Shown here: positions 1 to 8,054 of the stretch, in pieces
Layout: every line of letters starts with the position of its first letter
Position numbering within the stretch: the first letter of the stretch is position 1
Assembly (NCBI GenBank): GCA_028284285.1
Contig: JANQSA010000051.1
Coordinates: 124,001 to 188,000, forward strand
Origin: Croceivirga sp.
Lineage (GTDB): Bacteria > Bacteroidota > Bacteroidia > Flavobacteriales > Flavobacteriaceae
DNA: 64,000 bases
Direction: 5' to 3'
Notes under the pieces: generated by a model
What the model was told of the DNA's origin: nothing
The model's input: only the letters and a program-made list of their open reading frames with translations
The model's database searches: none
Position numbers and translations under genes: made by a program

Positions 1-959
1 CCGCCTTAACGAGTATGCACCCGGGAAAAGTACTCTTTTCCGGTTTGTATCCGAATACCGAAGTAGGGCTGGGGGATACCTTACTGATTTTGCACAGTGC
101 TCAACTGGAAGAACAACTGGCACAACAGCACTACACTTTCACACGGCTGGAGGAACAGCTTTCGGATCTACGGCATTTGGTCCAGGGAAAAGTGCATTTA
201 TTGAAGCATTTGGTGTCTAATCCTTATAAGAAAGCCTATCTGGAGTATCAGGAACAACTTCGGGAGCACTATACCCGTATTAAAAAACTAAAGCGGGATC
301 ATGAGCGTAATCAAAAATTACTGGCAGGTGGTGTTATTGCCCCGGTAGCCTTTGAAGATCAAAAATTGGAATACGATCTTGCCCGAAATGCCCTTCAACA
401 ATACAAAAAAAAACAACTAAGCCACTGGCAGACCACCCTGATTGAACTGGAAGATCAACAGAAAGGGGCGGTACATCAGATCAACGCCCTGCGAGAAACC
501 AAAAAAGAGTATGTGATCACCGCCCCGGTATGCGGGACCCTGCTTAATCTTAGGCAAGGCATAGCAAAGGGCAGTATGATTGCCGCTGGAGCGCTATTGG
601 CTGAGATCTCCCCCGATGCCGAGGTGCTGGCGGAATGCTATATCAGCCCCATGGAGATTGGCCTCATTGATCCTGCAAAGCCTGTTAAATTTCAAATAGA
701 TGCCTACAACTACAACCAGTGGGGCATGGCTACGGGTAACATCCTGGAGATGGGAAAGGATGTTGAATTCATCGATAACACTACGGTCTATAAAGTGCGG
801 TGCGCCATTGATCAGAAGTATCTACAGCTTAACAACGGAGCAAAAGGACAATTAATCAAAGGGATGAGTTTTACCGCCCGATTTGAATTGGCGGAACGCA
901 CACTTTTTCAATTGCTATATGACACCATAGACGATTGGATTCATCCCGGAACACTCTAA
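1..959 (+). CDS. HlyD-family secretion adaptor (5' end outside window)
   Basis: Periplasmic adaptor (membrane fusion protein) that would link an inner-membrane ABC exporter to an outer-membrane channel. The frame is open to the first base (codons from position 3), so the N-terminus and membrane anchor lie upstream; the Met at 15 is probably internal. A long charged helical stretch (about residues 25-150 from that Met, rich in E, Q, K, L) fits the coiled-coil hairpin. The following VITAPVCGTLLNL segment and the AECYIS strand fit the second half of the lipoyl/barrel-sandwich domain. It lies 21 bp before a small HTH gene and just upstream of the peptidase-containing ABC exporter, so it is most likely the adaptor for that exporter. 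The family call is firm; the cargo is inferred from the neighbours. Confidence 0.9.
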   Translation, partial: ALTSMHPGKVLFSGLYPNTEVGLGDTLLILHSAQLEEQLAQQHYTFTRLEEQLSDLRHLVQGKVHLLKHLVSNPYKKAYLEYQEQLREHYTRIKKLKRDHERNQKLLAGGVIAPVAFEDQKLEYDLARNALQQYKKKQLSHWQTTLIELEDQQKGAVHQINALRETKKEYVITAPVCGTLLNLRQGIAKGSMIAAGALLAEISPDAEVLAECYISPMEIGLIDPAKPVKFQIDAYNYNQWGMATGNILEMGKDVEFIDNTTVYKVRCAIDQKYLQLNNGAKGQLIKGMSFTARFELAERTLFQLLYDTIDDWIHPGTL

Positions 960-980
960 TTCGATTAAACCCTCAGTATT

Positions 981-1295
981 ATGAAGATGGTCACAAAAAT
1001 GGAGAACATGCTACAACTGCATGACCGTATTAAAACAAAAAATACAGGTGCTCCGGATGTCATTGCCAAAGCTTTGAATATCAGTGAAACAGAAGTGTAC
1101 TACCTGATTCAACAGCTTTTGGAATTGAATCCTTCGCTGCAGTATCATCATGAAAAATCCACTTACTATTACGCAGACGGTTTTCCCAACCATGTCGCGG
1201 TCTCTGTAGCCATTATTGCGGGTAACAATCCGATCCAGAAACTATTGAACGTCTCTTCGGACGAACCGGTTACGCATAATTTTCTGTTTGCCTAA
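981..1295 (+). CDS. Small HTH-domain protein of the bacteriocin locus (copy 1)
   Basis: 104 residues. Residues about 10-60 read as a DeoR-like helix-turn-helix (IAKALNISETEVYYLIQQLL), followed by a short wing-like segment with aromatic residues. It is clearly related to the protein at 3714-4025: both share the pattern TG-P-x-x-[IL]AK-x-L-x-IS-E, then ELN, then a Tyr-rich strand. It sits between the HlyD adaptor gene and the exporter gene (11 bp gap), in the same operon. A role in regulating the locus is inferred; no target is known. An alternative start is the second or third Met (993 or 1008). Confidence 0.75.
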   Translation: MKMVTKMENMLQLHDRIKTKNTGAPDVIAKALNISETEVYYLIQQLLELNPSLQYHHEKSTYYYADGFPNHVAVSVAIIAGNNPIQKLLNVSSDEPVTHNFLFA

Positions 1296-1306
1296 ATACT
1301 TAAGCC

Positions 1307-3484
1307 ATGGCAAAGATCACCATTAAACAACATGACATCACAGACTGCGGTGCTGCCTGCCTTGCTTCTGTAGCCGCCCACCATGGTTTTCAGTTACCCA
1401 TTTCACGTATACGGCAATATGCCGGCACCGATAAAAAAGGTACCAATGTTTTTGGGCTGATCAAAGCGGCGGAGAAAATGGGGTTTGAGGCCAAAGGAGT
1501 ACGCGGTGATTTTGAAAGCCTTTTTAAAATACCAAAACCTGCCATTGCTCATGTCATCGTTAAAGAGCGGTTGCAGCACTATGTGGTGATTTACCGGATT
1601 ACCAAAAAACATGTGTTCATCATGGACCCCGGTACCGGGAAATTGGAGAAGCGTTCCCCCGAACGTTTCAAAAAGGAATGGACCGGGGTTTTGGTTTTGC
1701 TTTTGCCTAACCAGGATTTTATAAAAGGGAATGCTAAAGTATCGCTGCTCCGAAGGTTTTGGTATTTATTACGACCGCACCGGACTGTACTGCTACAGGC
1801 TTTTGTCGGTGCTTTGGTCTACACATTGCTGGGCTTTTCCATGGCTATTTACCTGCAAAAGATCACCGATCATGTCCTGGTGAATGGTAATATCAAGCTG
1901 TTGAATCTAATGAGTTTGGTAATGCTATTGTTGTTGTTGACCCAGTTGGTCATTGGAGCATTAAAGGATATCTTTTTGATCAAAACCGGCCAACAAATTG
2001 ATGCCCGGCTGATACTGGGGTACTACAAACACTTACTCAAGTTACCACAGCATTTCTTTGATACCATGCGGGTAGGGGAGATCATTTCCCGGATTGGCGA
2101 TGCGGTTAAGATCCGGAATTTCATAAATGGGGTGGCCCTAACCCTTACCGTAAATGTGCTGATCGTCTTCTTTTCTTTTGTACTGATGTTCACCTATTAT
2201 TGGAAGCTGGCCCTGATTATGGCCCTGATCATCCCCATCTATCTTTTGCTATATGCCATAGTAAACCGACTAAATAAACGGGTGGAGCGGAAGGTGATGG
2301 AGGATGCTGCAGATCTGGAAAGTCAGTTGGTAGAATCCTTAACTGCCGTGGGCACTTTAAAGCGCTTTGGCCTGGAGGAGTTTGCCAATGTAAAGACCGA
2401 GACAAAATTCATAAAACTCCTAAAAACAGGGTATACCTCTGCCTTAAATACCGTATTTTCCAAGATCAGTGCTCAAAATATTACACAACTCTTTACGGTG
2501 GTGCTGCTTTGGTTGGGCTCCGGTTTTGTCATTGCCCAGGAGATCACTCCCGGGGAGCTGCTATCGTTTTATGCCATAATCGGGTACTTCACCAGTCCGT
2601 TAACCGGGTTAATAGGGGCCAACAAGGAAATTCAGAATGCACTGATAGCCGCGGACCGACTGTTTGAGATCTTTGATCTGCAACGCGAGGAGTCAGCACA
2701 AAAAGTTCCCCTGAGTCCGGATAAAATAGGGGATATCCGATTTGAAAAAGTGGGTTTTAGTTATGGTACACGGGTGGAAGTGTTTAAAGAATTCAGTTTA
2801 ACACTGAAAAAAGGGGAGATCACTGCATTTGTCGGGGAAAGTGGTTCCGGCAAATCTACCCTGGTGTCTTTATTACAAAATATTTACCCGATACATAGCG
2901 GCAATATCTTTATCGGAGGGATCAATCTGAAGTATATTGAAAATGAGAGTCTTCGGCAGCTGGTGGCGGTGGTGCCCCAACAAATTGACCTCTTTTCAGG
3001 AAATGTGGCAGAAAATATAGCTGTTGGGGAACTGGAACCCGATGTAGAACGCATCTTACAGATTTGCAGGGATATCGGCATCCTGAAGTTTATAGAGGGT
3101 CTACCCAACGGTTTTAATACCTACCTGGGGGAAAATGGAGCTACCCTTTCAGGAGGACAAAAGCAACGGATTGCCATTGCCAGGGCGTTGTATAAACAAC
3201 CGGAAATCCTGGTGCTGGACGAAGCCACCTCTTCTTTAGACAGCAGCTCTGAGAATTATGTACAACGGGCGATAGATAACCTCCGGGTTCAGCATAAAAC
3301 CATTGTGATCATCGCGCACCGACTGAGCACTGTAGTCCATGCTGATACCATTGTGGTCCTGGATCAGGGCAAGGTACTGGAGCAAGGTTCCCACGAAGTC
3401 CTATATGCACAAAAAGGAAGGTATTACCAACTTTGGCGACAGCAGTTGCCAAGGTTTACGGTAAAATTAAAATCTGCCAGTTAA
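1307..3484 (+). CDS. Peptidase-containing ABC exporter (C39 peptidase, PCAT type)
   Basis: 725-residue exporter that cuts double-glycine leaders and exports the mature peptide. The N-terminal C39 peptidase has Gln8, catalytic Cys14 (TDCGAAC), His91 (QHYVVIY) and Asp107 (MDPGTG), all in the expected order. The membrane domain covers about residues 150-440. The ABC domain has Walker A GESGSGKST, the LSGGQKQR signature, Walker B ILVLDEATSSLD and the switch His in IIAHRLS. All catalytic residues are present, so it should be active. Two double-glycine precursor peptides follow at 4153 and 4354, and an HlyD adaptor precedes it, giving a complete type I bacteriocin secretion set apart from a TolC-like channel, which is not in the window. 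Confidence 0.95.
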   Translation: MAKITIKQHDITDCGAACLASVAAHHGFQLPISRIRQYAGTDKKGTNVFGLIKAAEKMGFEAKGVRGDFESLFKIPKPAIAHVIVKERLQHYVVIYRITKKHVFIMDPGTGKLEKRSPERFKKEWTGVLVLLLPNQDFIKGNAKVSLLRRFWYLLRPHRTVLLQAFVGALVYTLLGFSMAIYLQKITDHVLVNGNIKLLNLMSLVMLLLLLTQLVIGALKDIFLIKTGQQIDARLILGYYKHLLKLPQHFFDTMRVGEIISRIGDAVKIRNFINGVALTLTVNVLIVFFSFVLMFTYYWKLALIMALIIPIYLLLYAIVNRLNKRVERKVMEDAADLESQLVESLTAVGTLKRFGLEEFANVKTETKFIKLLKTGYTSALNTVFSKISAQNITQLFTVVLLWLGSGFVIAQEITPGELLSFYAIIGYFTSPLTGLIGANKEIQNALIAADRLFEIFDLQREESAQKVPLSPDKIGDIRFEKVGFSYGTRVEVFKEFSLTLKKGEITAFVGESGSGKSTLVSLLQNIYPIHSGNIFIGGINLKYIENESLRQLVAVVPQQIDLFSGNVAENIAVGELEPDVERILQICRDIGILKFIEGLPNGFNTYLGENGATLSGGQKQRIAIARALYKQPEILVLDEATSSLDSSSENYVQRAIDNLRVQHKTIVIIAHRLSTVVHADTIVVLDQGKVLEQGSHEVLYAQKGRYYQLWRQQLPRFTVKLKSAS

Positions 3485-3575
3485 AGCATAATAAATTCCC
3501 AAAAACAAAAACTATGAAACAAACATTAATAAATTTTAGGCATTTTTTCACAAAAGGGGATGTTTAAAATTCCTC

Positions 3576-3670
3576 CCTGCCGGTTTACATGCCTTTGGCA
3601 TGCAGGCAGGTTTAATGTGAGAACGTAGTGGTTGCGCAGGTTCTCAACCTGCCCGTCCGGCAGGCAGGTT
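3576..3670. repeat. Cluster of nested palindromes with CCTGCC/GGCAGG arms
   Basis: Between the exporter and the second HTH gene. Three hairpins follow each other: CCTGCC(3576)...GGCAGG(3610) enclosing the perfect CATGCC-TTT-GGCATG (3588-3602); GAGAAC(3619)...GTTCTC(3645); and AACCTGCC(3646)...GGCAGGTT(3670). Related CCTGCCTG-type motifs occur near 27919 and 49262. They look like dispersed intergenic palindromes rather than a terminator, as no T run follows. A 17-codon frame at 3514-3567 upstream of them shows no supporting feature. Confidence 0.6.
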
Positions 3671-3713
3671 TTATAATTAACATATTTTCAAGTAATTGCT
3701 AAAATTTAAACGT

Positions 3714-4025
3714 GTGAAACAGTTGACCAAACAAATCGCCCTTTTAGAACGCGTAGACCGATTGATCCGATTAAAAGCTACCGGTCGCCCCAAACAGTTA
3801 GCCAAACGGCTCGACATCTCCGAGGCAACGGTCTTTAGAATGATAGAGACCATGAAGGAATTGAATGCCCCTGTGTATTACGATCTCGCCCGGCAAAGCT
3901 ATGCCTACGCTGAACCTACCAAATTCAAATGTGGGTTTTATCTGGAAGAATTGGATCGTAACACAGAAAAAGACCTTTCCGGAGGTTTTGCCTTTAACAA
4001 TTTAAAGTATCTGACCAGATTTTAA
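3714..4025 (+). CDS. Small HTH-domain protein of the bacteriocin locus (copy 2)
   Basis: About 103 residues. The HTH segment (QLAKRLDISEATVFRMIETM) matches the helix-turn-helix of the protein at 981-1295, and both continue into ELN plus a Tyr-rich segment, so they are paralogues. The start is uncertain: TTG at 3696 adds six residues, and GTG at 3714 gives a conventional MKQLTKQ start; there is no ATG. It lies directly upstream of the two precursor peptides (127 bp gap), so it may control their transcription; that role is inferred from position only. Confidence 0.7.
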   Translation: MKQLTKQIALLERVDRLIRLKATGRPKQLAKRLDISEATVFRMIETMKELNAPVYYDLARQSYAYAEPTKFKCGFYLEELDRNTEKDLSGGFAFNNLKYLTRF

Positions 4026-4152
4026 CAGAATTCGCTTTTAACTCGCACAATTTGAGAGTGGTACGAAGGATATTTGAGGAGTAATCAAAACAGCGCGCAA
4101 CAGAAATTTCTGGTTTTGGTTTAAAAATCAATGTTTAATCTAAAATTTAAAA

Positions 4153-4335
4153 ATGGAAAATTTACGTTTAATTGGAATTAAAGAACTCGACCATTCAGAA
4201 GTTGTTGATGTAAACGGTGGATTCATTCACTGGGGCGCATATCAAGGGGATATTGTTCAGTTTGGGATAGGTTTTTTTAGTGCTGTCGGTGCGGCATTTA
4301 ACGAAGGATATAATGATGTAAGTAACCCTAGATAA
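4153..4335 (+). CDS. Double-glycine bacteriocin precursor, peptide 1
   Basis: 60 residues. The 23-residue leader ends in NGG, with the hydrophobic positions expected for C39 processing: Leu at -12, Val at -7, Val at -4, and Glu at -8. The predicted 37-residue mature part starts FIHWGAYQGD. It holds a GxxxG motif (G28-G32) and a hydrophobic, Gly/Ala-rich middle, as in pore-forming class II bacteriocins. The gene starts after an A-rich stretch typical of Bacteroidota translation starts. A second GG peptide follows 18 bp later, then a CPBP membrane protein, all downstream of a C39 exporter. Function as a bacteriocin is inferred; the leader and exporter match is visible in the sequence. Confidence 0.8.
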   Translation: MENLRLIGIKELDHSEVVDVNGGFIHWGAYQGDIVQFGIGFFSAVGAAFNEGYNDVSNPR

Positions 4336-4353
4336 CAAATAAAATTAGAAGTT

Positions 4354-4515
4354 ATGAAACTAACAGAATTGAGCATAGAAGAATCTAAGTATATTGAAGG
4401 TGGAGGTCCAAGAGACTGGGGTGAAGATGTAGGACACGCTGTGGGCTATGGAGCAGGTGCAGTTTTTGGATTGTTCATGAACACAGTAAAGCTGGCAACT
4501 AAATTATTAGCATAG
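4354..4515 (+). CDS. Double-glycine bacteriocin precursor, peptide 2 (glycine zipper)
   Basis: 53 residues, ATG at 4354, TAG at 4513. The leader MKLTELSIEESKYIEGG (17 residues) has Leu at -12, Glu at -8, Ile at -4 and GG at -2/-1; a third Gly follows. The 36-residue core has glycines exactly every fourth residue at 23, 27, 31, 35 and 39, an uninterrupted GxxxG ladder that would form one glycine face of a membrane helix. Two adjacent GG peptides, each with GxxxG, followed by one membrane protein, is the arrangement of class IIb two-peptide bacteriocins. The CPBP gene starts three bases after the stop, so the two are probably translationally coupled. Confidence 0.8.
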   Translation: MKLTELSIEESKYIEGGGPRDWGEDVGHAVGYGAGAVFGLFMNTVKLATKLLA

Positions 4516-4517
4516 CA

Positions 4518-5204
4518 ATGTTGAAAAACATTTTCGACTTTTTAAGAGATCCAAAAGAGATGTTACCCGTTAAAAAGGAACTAACCTTTTATTCATCTTT
4601 CTGGAAGCATTTGAAATTTATTCTTTTGATTACATTCTCTTTTGGATCTCTGATATTTCTAATTAGCCTTTTTGATCCCTCGATATACACCGTGATAGCA
4701 AAAAGAGATGAAAAGACACGTATATTAATTCTTTTGAGCACCTTATTCTATCCGTTTTTTGAGGAGGTTGGTTTCAGGTTACATTTAAAAGTCACTCGTT
4801 TGAACCTGGCAATTTCATTTTCTATTCAAACTATTTATTTGTTTTTTTTGTTTGACTTTTTTGACATGACTAACTTGATTATAGCCCTGCTATCGATTTT
4901 TCCATTTGCTTTACTATTTTACTTTGTAATAAACCCAAGAATAATTACTTACCTAAAAAAAGAATTTCGATTCTTCTTTTATTACAATCTGCTTTTCTTC
5001 ACTCTTTTGCACTTGGTAAATTATCGTTTAATCGAGCCCATTCACTATTTATATGTTCTTATCGTTTTGTCATTACCCTTTCTCATGGGAACATATCTCA
5101 GTTATATCAGATTAAAAATTGGATTTCTATTTTGCGTACTGATTCATATTTGCTTTAACCTGTTTCTCAATATCCCCTATATCATAGAATATTATCCAAA
5201 TTAG
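4518..5204 (+). CDS. CPBP-family membrane protein, likely bacteriocin immunity
   Basis: 228 residues, strongly hydrophobic with about six to seven membrane segments. The three CPBP (Abi) motifs are intact: EExxxR at Glu82-Glu83-Arg87, FxxxH at Phe161-His165, and HxxxN at His210-Asn214. The family contains intramembrane proteases, including Rce1-like enzymes, and proteins giving self-immunity to bacteriocins. Its start is three bases after the stop of precursor peptide 2, which supports an immunity role; a modifying-protease role is the alternative. The stretch 4140-5204 is visibly richer in A+T than the flanking genes, a hint of horizontal transfer. Confidence 0.85.
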   Translation: MLKNIFDFLRDPKEMLPVKKELTFYSSFWKHLKFILLITFSFGSLIFLISLFDPSIYTVIAKRDEKTRILILLSTLFYPFFEEVGFRLHLKVTRLNLAISFSIQTIYLFFLFDFFDMTNLIIALLSIFPFALLFYFVINPRIITYLKKEFRFFFYYNLLFFTLLHLVNYRLIEPIHYLYVLIVLSLPFLMGTYLSYIRLKIGFLFCVLIHICFNLFLNIPYIIEYYPN

Positions 5205-5247
5205 GGGTGAGTAATATTTTCGCAAACGACTAATGAAGGAATACCTA

Positions 5248-6792
5248 TCACTTCCCCTCCAGCACTATAAAAGGCACAATCATTTCTTCCAAAGAGATCC
5301 CGCCATGCTGGTAGGTATTCCGATAATAGCTTACATAATGATTGTAGTTATTGGGGTAGGCAAAAAAGAGGTCGTTTTTCGCAAAAATATAGGAACTGCT
5401 TACGTTAATGCGGGGTAGTCGGATGTTTTCGGGTTCCTTCGCCGACAATACTTCTTTTTCACTATAGGTCAAACTTCTTCCGGTCTTATAGCGCAAATTA
5501 AGGCTGGTCTCCCGGTCACCAATTACCTTGGACGGCTGTTTTACATTAATAGTGCCGTGGTCGGTGGTGATCAGCAATTTCATTCCCAGGCCCTGGGCCT
5601 GTTGGATGATTTGCAGCAAAGGGGAGTTTTTAAACCAGCTTAAGGTCAAAGAGCGATAGGCCTTATCGTTCCCCGCCAGTTCCTTGATCACTTCCATTTC
5701 GGTTTTGGCGTGGGAAAGCATGTCCACAAAATTGTAGACCACTACCGTGAGATCGTTGTCCTTTTGCGTCTTAAAGTTTTGGGCCAATTGTTTCCCCTGC
5801 TTTAAGCTACTGATCTTATGGTATTCCCATTTGAGGTCGGCCCTTAAGCGCTGCAACTGTGCGCCCAAAAACTCAGCTTCATAGAGGTTTTTACCGCCTT
5901 CATCCGTATCGTTTTTCCACCATTCCGGATGCCGTTTTTCCATATCCAGCGGCGTGAGGCCGGAAAACAAGGCATTTCTTGCATATTGGGTGGCGGTGGG
6001 TAAAATACTGTAATACGGGATCTCTTTTTGTTTTCTGTAAAAGTTTGTTACCACGTCCTCAATGGCTAACCACTGGTCATACCGGAGGTTGTCTATCACT
6101 ACCAAAAGGGTAGGGGTAGTTCCCAATTCCGGAAGCACGGCTTTTTTGAACAGGGTATGAGAAAGCACGGGCGCTTCCTCATCCGTAAACCAATCCCGGT
6201 AATTCTTTTCAATAAACTTGCTAAACTGGGTATTGGCCTCTAATTTTTGGGACTCCAGGATCTCAAACATGCTATTGTCTTCAATAGCCTCCAGTTGCAG
6301 CTCCCAGTAGATCAGCCTTTTGTACAATTCAGCCCAGGCCTCATGAGTGTTGACCATGGAGAGGTCCATAGCGATCTTTCGAAATTCCTGCTGGTAATTC
6401 GCTGTAGTACGTTCGGATACCAGGCGGGAGTTCTCCAGGTTCTTTTTTAGGGAAAGGAGGATTTGATTAGGATTTACCGGTTTTATCAGGTAGTCTGCGA
6501 TCTTACTCCCGATAGCTTCATCCATGAGATACTCTTCCTCACTTTTGGTGATCATCACAACAGGAAGAAGGGGGGCTTTTTGTTTGAGTTCCCCCAAGGT
6601 ATCCAAACCCGACAGGCCGGGCATGTTCTCATCTAAAAAAACAACATCAAAGCTTTGCTGTTCTACTTCCTCCAGGGCTTCCTGCCCGCTTTGTGCGGTA
6701 GTCAATTGATATCCTTTACCCTCCAGGAACAGAATGTGGGGCTTAAGCAGTTCTATTTCATCATCCACCCATAGAATGGAAATCTTTTTCAT
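5248..6792 (-). CDS. porX: PorX-type response regulator with PglZ domain
   Basis: 514 residues. Residues 1-120 are a receiver domain with the acidic pair Asp10-Asp11, phospho-acceptor Asp54 (FLDENMPG) and Lys in LIKP. A helical linker leads to a PglZ (alkaline-phosphatase-fold) domain from about residue 200, with metal-site motifs VVIDNLRYDQW and ITTDHGTI. This architecture matches PorX, the regulator acting with the histidine kinase PorY in control of the type IX secretion system and gliding/secretion genes in Bacteroidota. It is a single-gene unit convergent with the bacteriocin operon (43 bp between stops) and divergent from the HD-hydrolase gene. The identification is strong from the domain pairing. 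Confidence 0.92.
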   Translation of the reverse strand: MKKISILWVDDEIELLKPHILFLEGKGYQLTTAQSGQEALEEVEQQSFDVVFLDENMPGLSGLDTLGELKQKAPLLPVVMITKSEEEYLMDEAIGSKIADYLIKPVNPNQILLSLKKNLENSRLVSERTTANYQQEFRKIAMDLSMVNTHEAWAELYKRLIYWELQLEAIEDNSMFEILESQKLEANTQFSKFIEKNYRDWFTDEEAPVLSHTLFKKAVLPELGTTPTLLVVIDNLRYDQWLAIEDVVTNFYRKQKEIPYYSILPTATQYARNALFSGLTPLDMEKRHPEWWKNDTDEGGKNLYEAEFLGAQLQRLRADLKWEYHKISSLKQGKQLAQNFKTQKDNDLTVVVYNFVDMLSHAKTEMEVIKELAGNDKAYRSLTLSWFKNSPLLQIIQQAQGLGMKLLITTDHGTINVKQPSKVIGDRETSLNLRYKTGRSLTYSEKEVLSAKEPENIRLPRINVSSSYIFAKNDLFFAYPNNYNHYVSYYRNTYQHGGISLEEMIVPFIVLEGK

Positions 6793-6827
6793 ACAGTGTT
6801 TATATTTACAGCTTTAAAAATAAGGTA

Positions 6828-8054
6828 TTGGCGAAGACCAACAAGCTTAAAATATTTAACGATCCGATTTATGGTTTTATTGGCACCCCCAATGAATTCA
6901 TTTTTAATTTAATCGCCCATCCCTATTTCCAGAGGCTTCGTCGCATATCGCAAATGGGGCTCTCATATCTTGTCTATCCCGGGGCGCATCACACTCGATT
7001 TCACCACGCCCTGGGGTGTATGCACCTGATGCAGAAAGCAATTGATATCTTACGGTACAAAGGGGTTGCTATCACTTCCGATGAAGCGAACGGCCTGTTG
7101 TGCGCTATTTTGCTTCATGATATAGGGCATGGCCCTTTCTCTCATGCCCTTGAGCATACACTGGTACCCCACTATGATCATGAACAACTTTCCCTGCTTT
7201 TTATGGAACATCTGGATCAGGAGTTCGGTGGAAAACTGGATCTGGCCTTGGCCATATTTAAAAAACAACATCCCAAACCCTTTTTAAATCAACTGGTTTC
7301 CGGACAGTTGGATATGGATAGAATGGATTATTTAAAACGGGATAGTTTTTACACGGGGGTTACGGAGGGAAATATCAGTTCCGATCGATTGATCACCATG
7401 TTGAATGTCCATAACGGTGAACTGGTAGTAGAGGAAAAGGGCTTGTATTCGGTAGAAAAGTTTTTGATGGCGCGTCGTTTTATGTACTGGCAGGTCTATT
7501 TACATAAGACCAGCCTGGTAGCGGAGCAGCTATTGATAAAACTGGTGAAGCGCGCCAGGGATTTGATGAAGCAGGGAAAAGAAGTACAGGCTTCGCCTAC
7601 CTTTTTATACTTTTTAAATGAAGATCACGGGGCGCCCTTTGATAAAGAACGATTAGAGCGGTTTTCCCTTTTGGACGATGTGGATGTACTGGCTGCGATA
7701 AAACTATGGCAAAACCATCCGGATTTCATCCTGTCTACCCTGTCCAAAATGCTGTTGAACCGAAACCTTTTAAAAATCAAGATCAAAAACAAGCCTTTTG
7801 ATCCTGTAAAGCTAGCGTCCAAAAAAGAATGGACGAAGAAGAAGTATAATGTTGCCGATGACGATTTGGATTATTTTGTCTTTACGGGTCAAATTAGCAA
7901 CCAGGCCTATAATGCCGAACAGCAAAATATCAACATCCTGAGTAAAACGAAGGAAGTGGCGGATGTTGCGGAAGCATCGGACCATTTAAATCTGATGGCG
8001 CTTTCCCATGCAGTGATCAAATATTATGCGTGCTATCCTAAGAAAAGCGTTTGA
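6828..8054 (+). CDS. HD-domain phosphohydrolase
   Basis: 408 residues; only a TTG start (6828) is available, 35 bp from the divergent porX start. It has the HD-superfamily metal-site signatures: RFHHALGCMHL (first His), LLHDIGHGPFSHALEH (His-Asp), and a later Asp within SGQLDMDRMDYLKRD. This layout is that of dNTPase-like/SAMHD1-like HD proteins. The exact substrate cannot be read from the sequence. It precedes lpxD, and its stop is 24 bp before the lpxD ATG, so it probably belongs to the same transcription unit. Confidence 0.88.
   Translation: MAKTNKLKIFNDPIYGFIGTPNEFIFNLIAHPYFQRLRRISQMGLSYLVYPGAHHTRFHHALGCMHLMQKAIDILRYKGVAITSDEANGLLCAILLHDIGHGPFSHALEHTLVPHYDHEQLSLLFMEHLDQEFGGKLDLALAIFKKQHPKPFLNQLVSGQLDMDRMDYLKRDSFYTGVTEGNISSDRLITMLNVHNGELVVEEKGLYSVEKFLMARRFMYWQVYLHKTSLVAEQLLIKLVKRARDLMKQGKEVQASPTFLYFLNEDHGAPFDKERLERFSLLDDVDVLAAIKLWQNHPDFILSTLSKMLLNRNLLKIKIKNKPFDPVKLASKKEWTKKKYNVADDDLDYFVFTGQISNQAYNAEQQNINILSKTKEVADVAEASDHLNLMALSHAVIKYYACYPKKSV

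Follow-up and report, generated by a model that had tools for sequence, protein, structure and literature searches.

Organization of the Locus

The window, a stretch of 64,000 nucleotides (C61:124001-188000) from a Croceivirga sp. genome of 4.82 Mb in 82 contigs, carries genes for a peptide exporter, two small precursor peptides, a membrane protein and two DNA-binding proteins (Table 1). The gene order at the locus, including its left flank, starts with two genes that we take, from our own reading of the sequence, to be alanine dehydrogenase-like and tsaE-like, followed by three open reading frames of 336-348 amino acids and a small HTH-like gene, and continues with the HlyD adaptor, HTH1, the C39 exporter, an intergenic repeat, HTH2, P1, P2, the CPBP gene and a porX-like gene. 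The original prediction had placed a C39 exporter, an HlyD adaptor and two paralogous HTH proteins upstream of the peptides, which is borne out by domain matches and by the identity between the two HTH proteins. The repeat is matched in full or in part at 17 places of the genome, its own copy included, and two more C39-domain proteins are encoded in the same genome (G000:C24:16914 and G000:C36:12984).

Table 1. Features of the exporter and peptide locus, in positions of the window.
Feature	Position	Strand	Remarks
HlyD adaptor	1..959	+	PF13437 7e-10; 383 aa; start ~190 bases left of the window; full gene in L034
HTH1	981..1295	+	HTH2 paralogue, 29% identity; without GG site
C39 peptidase-containing ABC exporter	1307..3484	+	725 aa; C39 domain at about residues 1-150; TIGR01193 545.1 bits (above the cutoff of 523.85); PF03412 1.4e-38
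Palindrome-rich intergenic repeat	3572..3674		Between exporter and HTH2; REP-like
HTH2, winged-helix protein	3714..4025	+	103 aa; GTG start; C-terminal double-glycine site
P1 precursor	4153..4335	+	60 aa; leader MENLRLIGIKELDHSEVVDVNGG; core 37 aa
P2 precursor	4354..4515	+	53 aa; leader MKLTELSIEESKYIEGG; core 36 aa
CPBP (Rce1-like) membrane protein, predicted immunity protein	4518..5204	+	228 aa
porX-like gene (PF00072 response regulator + PF08665 PglZ)	5248..6792	-	Right-hand border; outside the cassette

The GC content is 29-37% across positions 4001-5500 vs 42-49% in the remainder of positions 1-8000. This AT-rich block had been interpreted as a sign of acquisition, which fits its content of peptide and putative immunity genes, but relatives with and without the exporter share both the porX border and the HTH gene: the same border is found at the cassette-bearing loci L031 and L032, as well as at L151, L154, L161, L166, L172 and L175, which have an HTH gene and no exporter.

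The Peptide Pair

P1 and P2 had been described as adjacent double-glycine precursors, and both frames are indeed open on the forward strand, with L-12, E-8, V-4 and GG at residues 22-23 in P1, and L-12, E-8, I-4 and GG at residues 16-17 in P2. Since a third glycine follows the GG of P2, its exact cut could lie one residue later. The predicted glycine ladder can be read directly in the translations: P2 has glycines at 16, 17, 18, 23, 27, 31, 33, 35 and 39, with rungs at 23, 27, 31, 35 and 39, and P1 contains G28xxxG32. Ladders of at least five rungs arise with a frequency of 0.00115 when the P2 core is shuffled 20,000 times. At pH 7, the P1 core is acidic (net charge -2.2) and the P2 core near neutral (-0.2), which is unusual among class IIb bacteriocins. 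The calculated monoisotopic masses of the predicted cores are 4049.91 Da for P1 and 3716.91 Da for P2.

Neither peptide scores as a member of a curated family: P1 reaches 20.3 bits (E 3.4e-4) against TIGR03949 (lactobin A/cerein 7B), below the curated cutoff of 21.5, and P2 reaches 16.3 bits against NF038035 (lactococcin G-alpha/enterocin 1071A), with a cutoff of 37; the P2 homologue of L031 scores 19.2 bits with TIGR03949. A PDB sequence search with P2 returned globin matches at chance level and nothing else.

Bacteroidetocins are double-glycine peptides of Bacteroidota exported by a C39 ABC transporter; they contain four cysteines and are accompanied by a gene for a thiol oxidoreductase, and an immunity protein has not been found for them (PMC6671954). 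P1 and P2 share with them the host phylum, the double glycine and the C39 ABC transporter, but differ in that they have zero cysteines, come as a pair and are accompanied by a CPBP gene.

Conservation of the Pair

Relatives of P2 were reached by whole-genome search and through the neighborhoods of related exporters. The whole-genome search with P2 alone yields one intact relative at E<1e-3, in the genome G176, where it is flanked by a P1-like frame before it and a CPBP gene behind it; G176 is assigned to Croceitalea dokdonensis through its locus L053, which is identical to L031. As had been anticipated, the two frames are conserved as a pair beside C39 exporters, namely in Croceitalea dokdonensis (L031 and, identically, L053), in a Croceivirga MAG (L048; P1 55% and P2 40% identical to the window copies) and in Hyunsoonleella pacifica (L074; P2 38% identical to that of the window, P1 related to the Croceitalea P1 at 4e-15). 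The neighboring CPBP protein belongs to the window subfamily in Croceitalea and Hyunsoonleella; none of this subfamily was found at L048. Seven core residues are invariant when the four P2 sequences are aligned (V26, G27, A29, V30, G31, G35 and G39), and the rungs at 27, 31, 35 and 39 make up four of them. Rung 23 is glycine in the window and L048, and alanine in L031 and L074.

In another genome of the same genus (G164), P2 is broken by two TAG stops, while the adjoining CPBP gene, of the window subfamily and with other neighbors, is intact, as expected of an immunity gene. A scan of contigs with the single P2 sequence covered 592 pattern-matching stretches and gave zero relatives at E<=1e-3, and the profile of the four P2 rows (A8) matches at E<1e-15 in three of 397 family genomes (one of them broken) and at E<=0.01 in 10 of 397; the P2 allele is therefore rare. 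Weak P2 matches (E roughly 0.02-1) were left unused, save for six scanned loci (L002, L003, L007, L012, L020, L023), which led to G176 and G340.

Peptides around Related Exporters

The wider survey comprised 82 loci, i.e., the best 80 of 488 exporter relatives, the window and L032; several of these loci are closely related, and the counts that follow ignore kinship. Within 5 kb of the exporters, 207 open reading frames with a GG leader lie on the exporter strand vs four on the opposite strand, all four in L110. They are concentrated near the exporters (207 in 665 kb vs 21 in 351 kb beyond 5 kb) and number zero at 11 of the 82 loci, several of them on short contigs. The leader pattern overlooks some peptides, finding one of the two in L053. 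The 121 tandem clusters consist of 54 single peptides, 56 pairs, eight triples and three larger groups. In Aquimarina, tandem clusters of seven (L101) and six (L106) GG peptides lie near the exporter.

Among the 196 unique cores, 250 glycine pairs are spaced by four residues, compared to 123.2±9.0 in shuffled cores. Spacings of 1, 2, 3, 5 and 6 fall below the shuffled means, and spacings of 7 and 8 exceed them by about 2.5 SD (141 vs 115 and 128 vs 109). Of 54 unique pairs, 23 have a GxxxG motif in each member, with 7.3 expected. An excess of glycines at spacing four is a signature of helix-pairing two-peptide bacteriocins. The cores diverge widely even among loci whose exporters and HTH proteins align well.

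The CPBP Protein and the Putative Mode of Action

A single CPBP gene lies directly 3′ of the pair, with two bases (CA) between the P2 stop and its ATG, and is predicted to provide immunity to both peptides. The three motifs attributed to it, EExxxR, FxxxH and HxxxN, are invariant or nearly so across 20 sequences including that of the window. SkkI and PlnI are bacteriocin immunity proteins of the CPBP family (PF02517, Rce1-like). The window protein resembles them in these motifs and in being encoded by one gene straight after the peptides, but differs in that it has no Pfam match at the PF02517 gathering score, a cutoff passed by six of the nine other proteins scanned. Rce1 is its top match upon re-examination, and a PDB sequence search with the CPBP profile gave no matches. 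With an iterated profile, a CPBP gene is detected within 1.5 kb downstream of at least 13 of 56 pairs and at least 26 of 121 clusters. These proportions are low and count against the interpretation favored here, but are lower bounds, because the profile misses a PF02517 subfamily of 284-289 amino acids (L042, L048, L153).

The GG peptides could alternatively be signals, or have another non-antibacterial role, with the CPBP protein processing or sensing them. The Rce1-like family has proteases among its known members and the CPBP protein retains the conserved motif residues, and the non-cationic cores likewise speak for such a role. However, the wide variation of the cores between loci with well-aligned exporters and HTH proteins, the strong GxxxG enrichment, which extends to pairs, and the intact CPBP gene beside a broken P2, which fits immunity better, make such a role improbable.

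Class IIb bacteriocins, of the plantaricin S, lactococcin G and lactobin A/cerein 7B type, offer the closest parallel. As judged from sequence, several features of this class are present: two adjacent, co-inherited precursors, GG leaders together with a dedicated C39 exporter, and GxxxG-like motifs in both peptides, to which one predicted immunity gene is added. The system differs from class IIb in its Bacteroidota host with an outer membrane, in sequences that stay under the curated cutoffs, in its non-cationic cores, and in a winged-helix protein with a GG site of its own within the cluster. Paired conservation beside C39 exporters, GxxxG enrichment and the situation in G164 all strengthen the class IIb-like reading first proposed for this locus. 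We are fairly sure that the genes specify an exported two-peptide system of class IIb-like character; the peptides are best read as a class IIb-like two-peptide bacteriocin with immunity conferred by the CPBP protein, and a swappable two-peptide bacteriocin cassette at tsaE-porX is the best explanation of the locus. This explanation appears rather probable as a whole.

The sequence itself shows the order of the genes, the leaders, the conservation of the pair, the GxxxG enrichment, the CPBP motifs and the GG register of HTH2 and its family, together with the position of this site beyond the predicted fold and its association with C39 exporters. Cleavage, export, killing, synergy, immunity and DNA binding are inferred, as is the whole regulatory step apart from the presence of the HTH2 site. 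P1 and P2 would be produced as GG-leader precursors and cut after GG by the C39 exporter, which, together with HlyD and a presumed TolC-type channel encoded elsewhere, would export cores of 37 and 36 residues. The cores might then pair via their GxxxG-lined helices and permeabilize the inner membrane of related bacteria, while the producer would be protected by the CPBP protein. The cassette would be controlled by HTH2 as a winged-helix DNA-binding protein, the flexible C-terminus of which, a leader-like segment with GG, could be recognized and cut by the same exporter. Release of the 12-residue tail would thereby couple regulation to the presence or activity of the exporter.

Two-peptide bacteriocins are known chiefly from Gram-positive bacteria, and no description of such bacteriocins from flavobacteria was found among the papers listed by searches of the open-access literature. 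The locus would extend them to marine Bacteroidota, in the form of a polymorphic system in which the CPBP protein confers immunity.

A Double-Glycine Site in HTH2

The original prediction did not mention that HTH2 itself carries a double-glycine site. With the start placed at GTG 3714 from comparison with homologues, the protein ends in L-12 D R N T-8 E K D L-4 S G G / FAFNNLKYLTRF, in which GG corresponds to residues 90-91 and is followed by a 12-residue tail with a calculated mass of 1532.81 Da. The site thus combines hydrophobic residues at -12 and -4 (Leu in both) with a polar residue at -8 (Thr; polar or acidic being expected) and GG, where GG or AG would be accepted.

The same register recurs in the family. 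Among 118 non-identical, near-complete homologues from exporter-centered and HTH-centered loci together, which include close relatives (15 of 133 rows, partial or identical, were left out), 61 tails carry it in strict and 79 in relaxed form, compared to means of 0.4 (maximum 3) and 2.2 (maximum 11) in 500 tail shuffles. The relaxed matches comprise 64 GG, 13 AG and two SG sites; even the relaxed register is missing in 39 of the 118. The family shares with 197 peptide leaders from the exporter loci its preferences for V at -15, L at -12, E at -8, a hydrophobic residue at -7 and I at -4, and departs from them at -3 and -13. Behind the site follow 12-31 residues in most members (range 3-43).

In the predicted structure of a 105-residue construct, the winged helix occupies residues 11-70 (block means 90-94), and the part beyond residue 70 is of low confidence, with a short helix at 84-90 (block mean 52) before GG at 92-93; in this model, the site falls outside the folded domain. 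A Foldseek search with the HTH2 model lists BirA, NiaR and DtxR-type proteins first and gives zero matches below E 0.001.

A more conventional possibility is that HTH2 is an ordinary DNA-binding regulator, whose L...I.GG tail is a structural or dimerization element that merely resembles a C39 leader. GSYF/GSYL-type remnants in some genomes without an adjacent exporter point in this direction, as do the deviations of the window clade from the leader consensus: -8 is mostly Thr or Ser and -7 mostly Glu. While -7 is V, L, I or M in 54 of the 79 register-bearing family members, the window copy and 11 of 15 clade members have Glu at this position, so that the site of HTH2 itself is weaker than the family consensus. 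On the other side, the register of the HTH proteins matches that of the leaders at the same loci: among the 90 [GA]G sites that the tails contain, 70 agree with it at -12, -8 and -4, and registers shifted by -2, -1, +1, +2 and +3 give 0, 0, 4, 0 and 0 fits. The position of the tail beyond the confident fold and the lack of the full motif in genomes without an exporter (see below) likewise argue against a purely structural element, which we consider possible, though on balance doubtful. The alignment A6 is no evidence in this matter, as its rows were picked by hand and nearly all have tails, which makes its invariant glycine at -1 partly a product of choice.

The tail might instead act as a pheromone, i.e., an exported 12-mer with conserved F+3, N+5, L+9 and C-terminal F that is sensed by neighboring cells. 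In a clade of 15 proteins, chosen by a pattern that fixes L-4, S/T-3, GG and the 12-residue tail and therefore informative in the other columns only, F+3 is kept in 14, N+5 in 13, L+9 in 12 and F+12 in 15, and positions +1, +2, +4, +7, +8 and +11 vary. Mean identity in this clade is 79% in the winged-helix part and 44% in the tail, and pN/pS, from three usable pairs only, is 0.445 in the tail vs 0.019 in the domain. Conservation of four positions amid variable ones would suit a pheromone, as would this ratio. However, no receptor is evident within the cluster, and longer tails occur in L039 and L153, which belong to the window clade, as well as in other clades; a pheromone role is thus unlikely. 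The paralogue HTH1, situated between HlyD and the exporter, and its counterparts in L039, L040 and L057 have no GG and end alike, in NFLF or FSF-like residues.

Association of the Site with an Exporter

Among 75 HTH proteins and the regions centered on them, 27 of the 32 that have a related exporter in the region carry the site, vs 10 of the 43 that do not (Fisher 1.4e-7, kinship ignored). Looser rules for exporter and flanks, with nine short-flank rows dropped, give 28 of 37 vs seven of 29 (Fisher 5e-5). Among 20 loci at porX, HTH-GG and C39 are both present in eight and both absent in nine, two have C39 without HTH-GG, and one has HTH-GG without C39. Kinship-aware tests on both trees point in the same direction, but with only three supported independent pairs each, for which reason the association is no more than suggestive. 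Some of the ten site-bearing rows without an exporter are special cases: a stop divides the exporter of L149, L190 and L240 are situated at or close to the ends of contigs, and the C39 gene of L252 is below threshold.

The family search, in which matches weaker than about 1e-10 were not taken as members, finds HTH proteins below 1e-15 in 25 of 375 genomes, nine of them from the family of the window. No exporter match at 1e-15 is present in 14 of 51 HTH-related genomes (12 of 25 plus two of 26), and in none of these 14 does the HTH protein retain the complete motif followed by five or more residues; a bare GG is left in three (G103, G355 and G147). The closest fetched relatives of the window by porX, both MAGs, differ in a corresponding manner: a Flavobacteriaceae bacterium (L039; porX 91.8%), whose exporter is 86% identical to that of the window, has exporter, GG tail and peptides, whereas a Croceivirga sp. 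(L040; 92.0%) has a 227-residue exporter remnant and an HTH2 that stops short of GG, and lacks GG peptides within 5 kb. As both are MAGs, an assembly error could underlie this contrast.

On the basis of pattern, position and association, cleavage of HTH2 by the C39 exporter seems a tenable proposal, though one that falls slightly short of even. Against a secretion tag count the five of 32 proteins with an exporter in the region that have no site, the ten of 43 that have the site but no such exporter, and HTH1, which has no GG in the very same cluster. Parallels for single aspects of this arrangement exist. NHLP and Nif11 precursors have globular leaders; HTH2 would resemble them in that a folded domain precedes, on the N-terminal side, a double-glycine site addressed to a C39 exporter, but its domain is predicted to be a DNA-binding winged helix and few residues follow GG. 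In flagella, the export of FlgM follows a logic comparable to that of an export-coupled regulator switch. HetC of Nostoc is likewise a C39-type exporter tied to a regulatory circuit; it has no known substrate, and a gene with a GG leader has not been found in the vicinity of hetC (PMC10986499). In the window, by contrast, the candidate regulator itself bears the GG site. Among the papers listed by searches of the open-access literature, there was no description of a winged-helix protein with a C-terminal GG site.

If HTH2 is cut by the exporter, gene expression would be tied to secretion in a new way, and the tagged HTH protein would represent export-coupled regulators of a new kind, joining bacteriocin exporter, regulator and signal through one protein. 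No pheromone/kinase set is seen in the cluster, and the proposal makes the regulation of such loci testable where this is the case.

Distribution in Other Bacteroidota and on Plasmids

Sixteen regions were fetched from five other family groups, and 12 of them contain a C39 match. Nine of these 12 show [GA]G with hydrophobic residues at -12 and -4 (tails read by eye), and the HTH gene lies within about 160 bases of the exporter in eight of the 16. A search of 72,556 plasmid records with HTH2 gave three matches, two of which were inspected. On a Persicobacter JZB09 plasmid (L260:3846-8674), an exporter, HTH-GG, two GG peptides, a CPBP gene and a transposase gene stand in a row, the latter two named by our own reading, suggesting mobility of the whole cassette; the HTH-GG protein has E-8, I-7 and I-4, but Asp at -12. 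Plasmid pAT7 of Aureibacter tunicatorum encodes an HTH-GG protein (M-12, D-8, M-7, I-4), TolC, HlyD, a C39 exporter and a GG peptide. Candidates for export-coupled regulators may thus be found on chromosomes and plasmids of several Bacteroidota families. That the winged-helix family consists of C39 substrates across Bacteroidota, with the exporter cutting and releasing the tail as an export-coupled switch and/or a short pheromone, is put forward tentatively, as an idea with somewhat less in its favor than against it. A contig labeled as a Planctomycetota MAG (L076), which is perhaps mis-binned or transferred, also encodes an exporter of flavobacterial type, together with an HTH protein whose site is AG.
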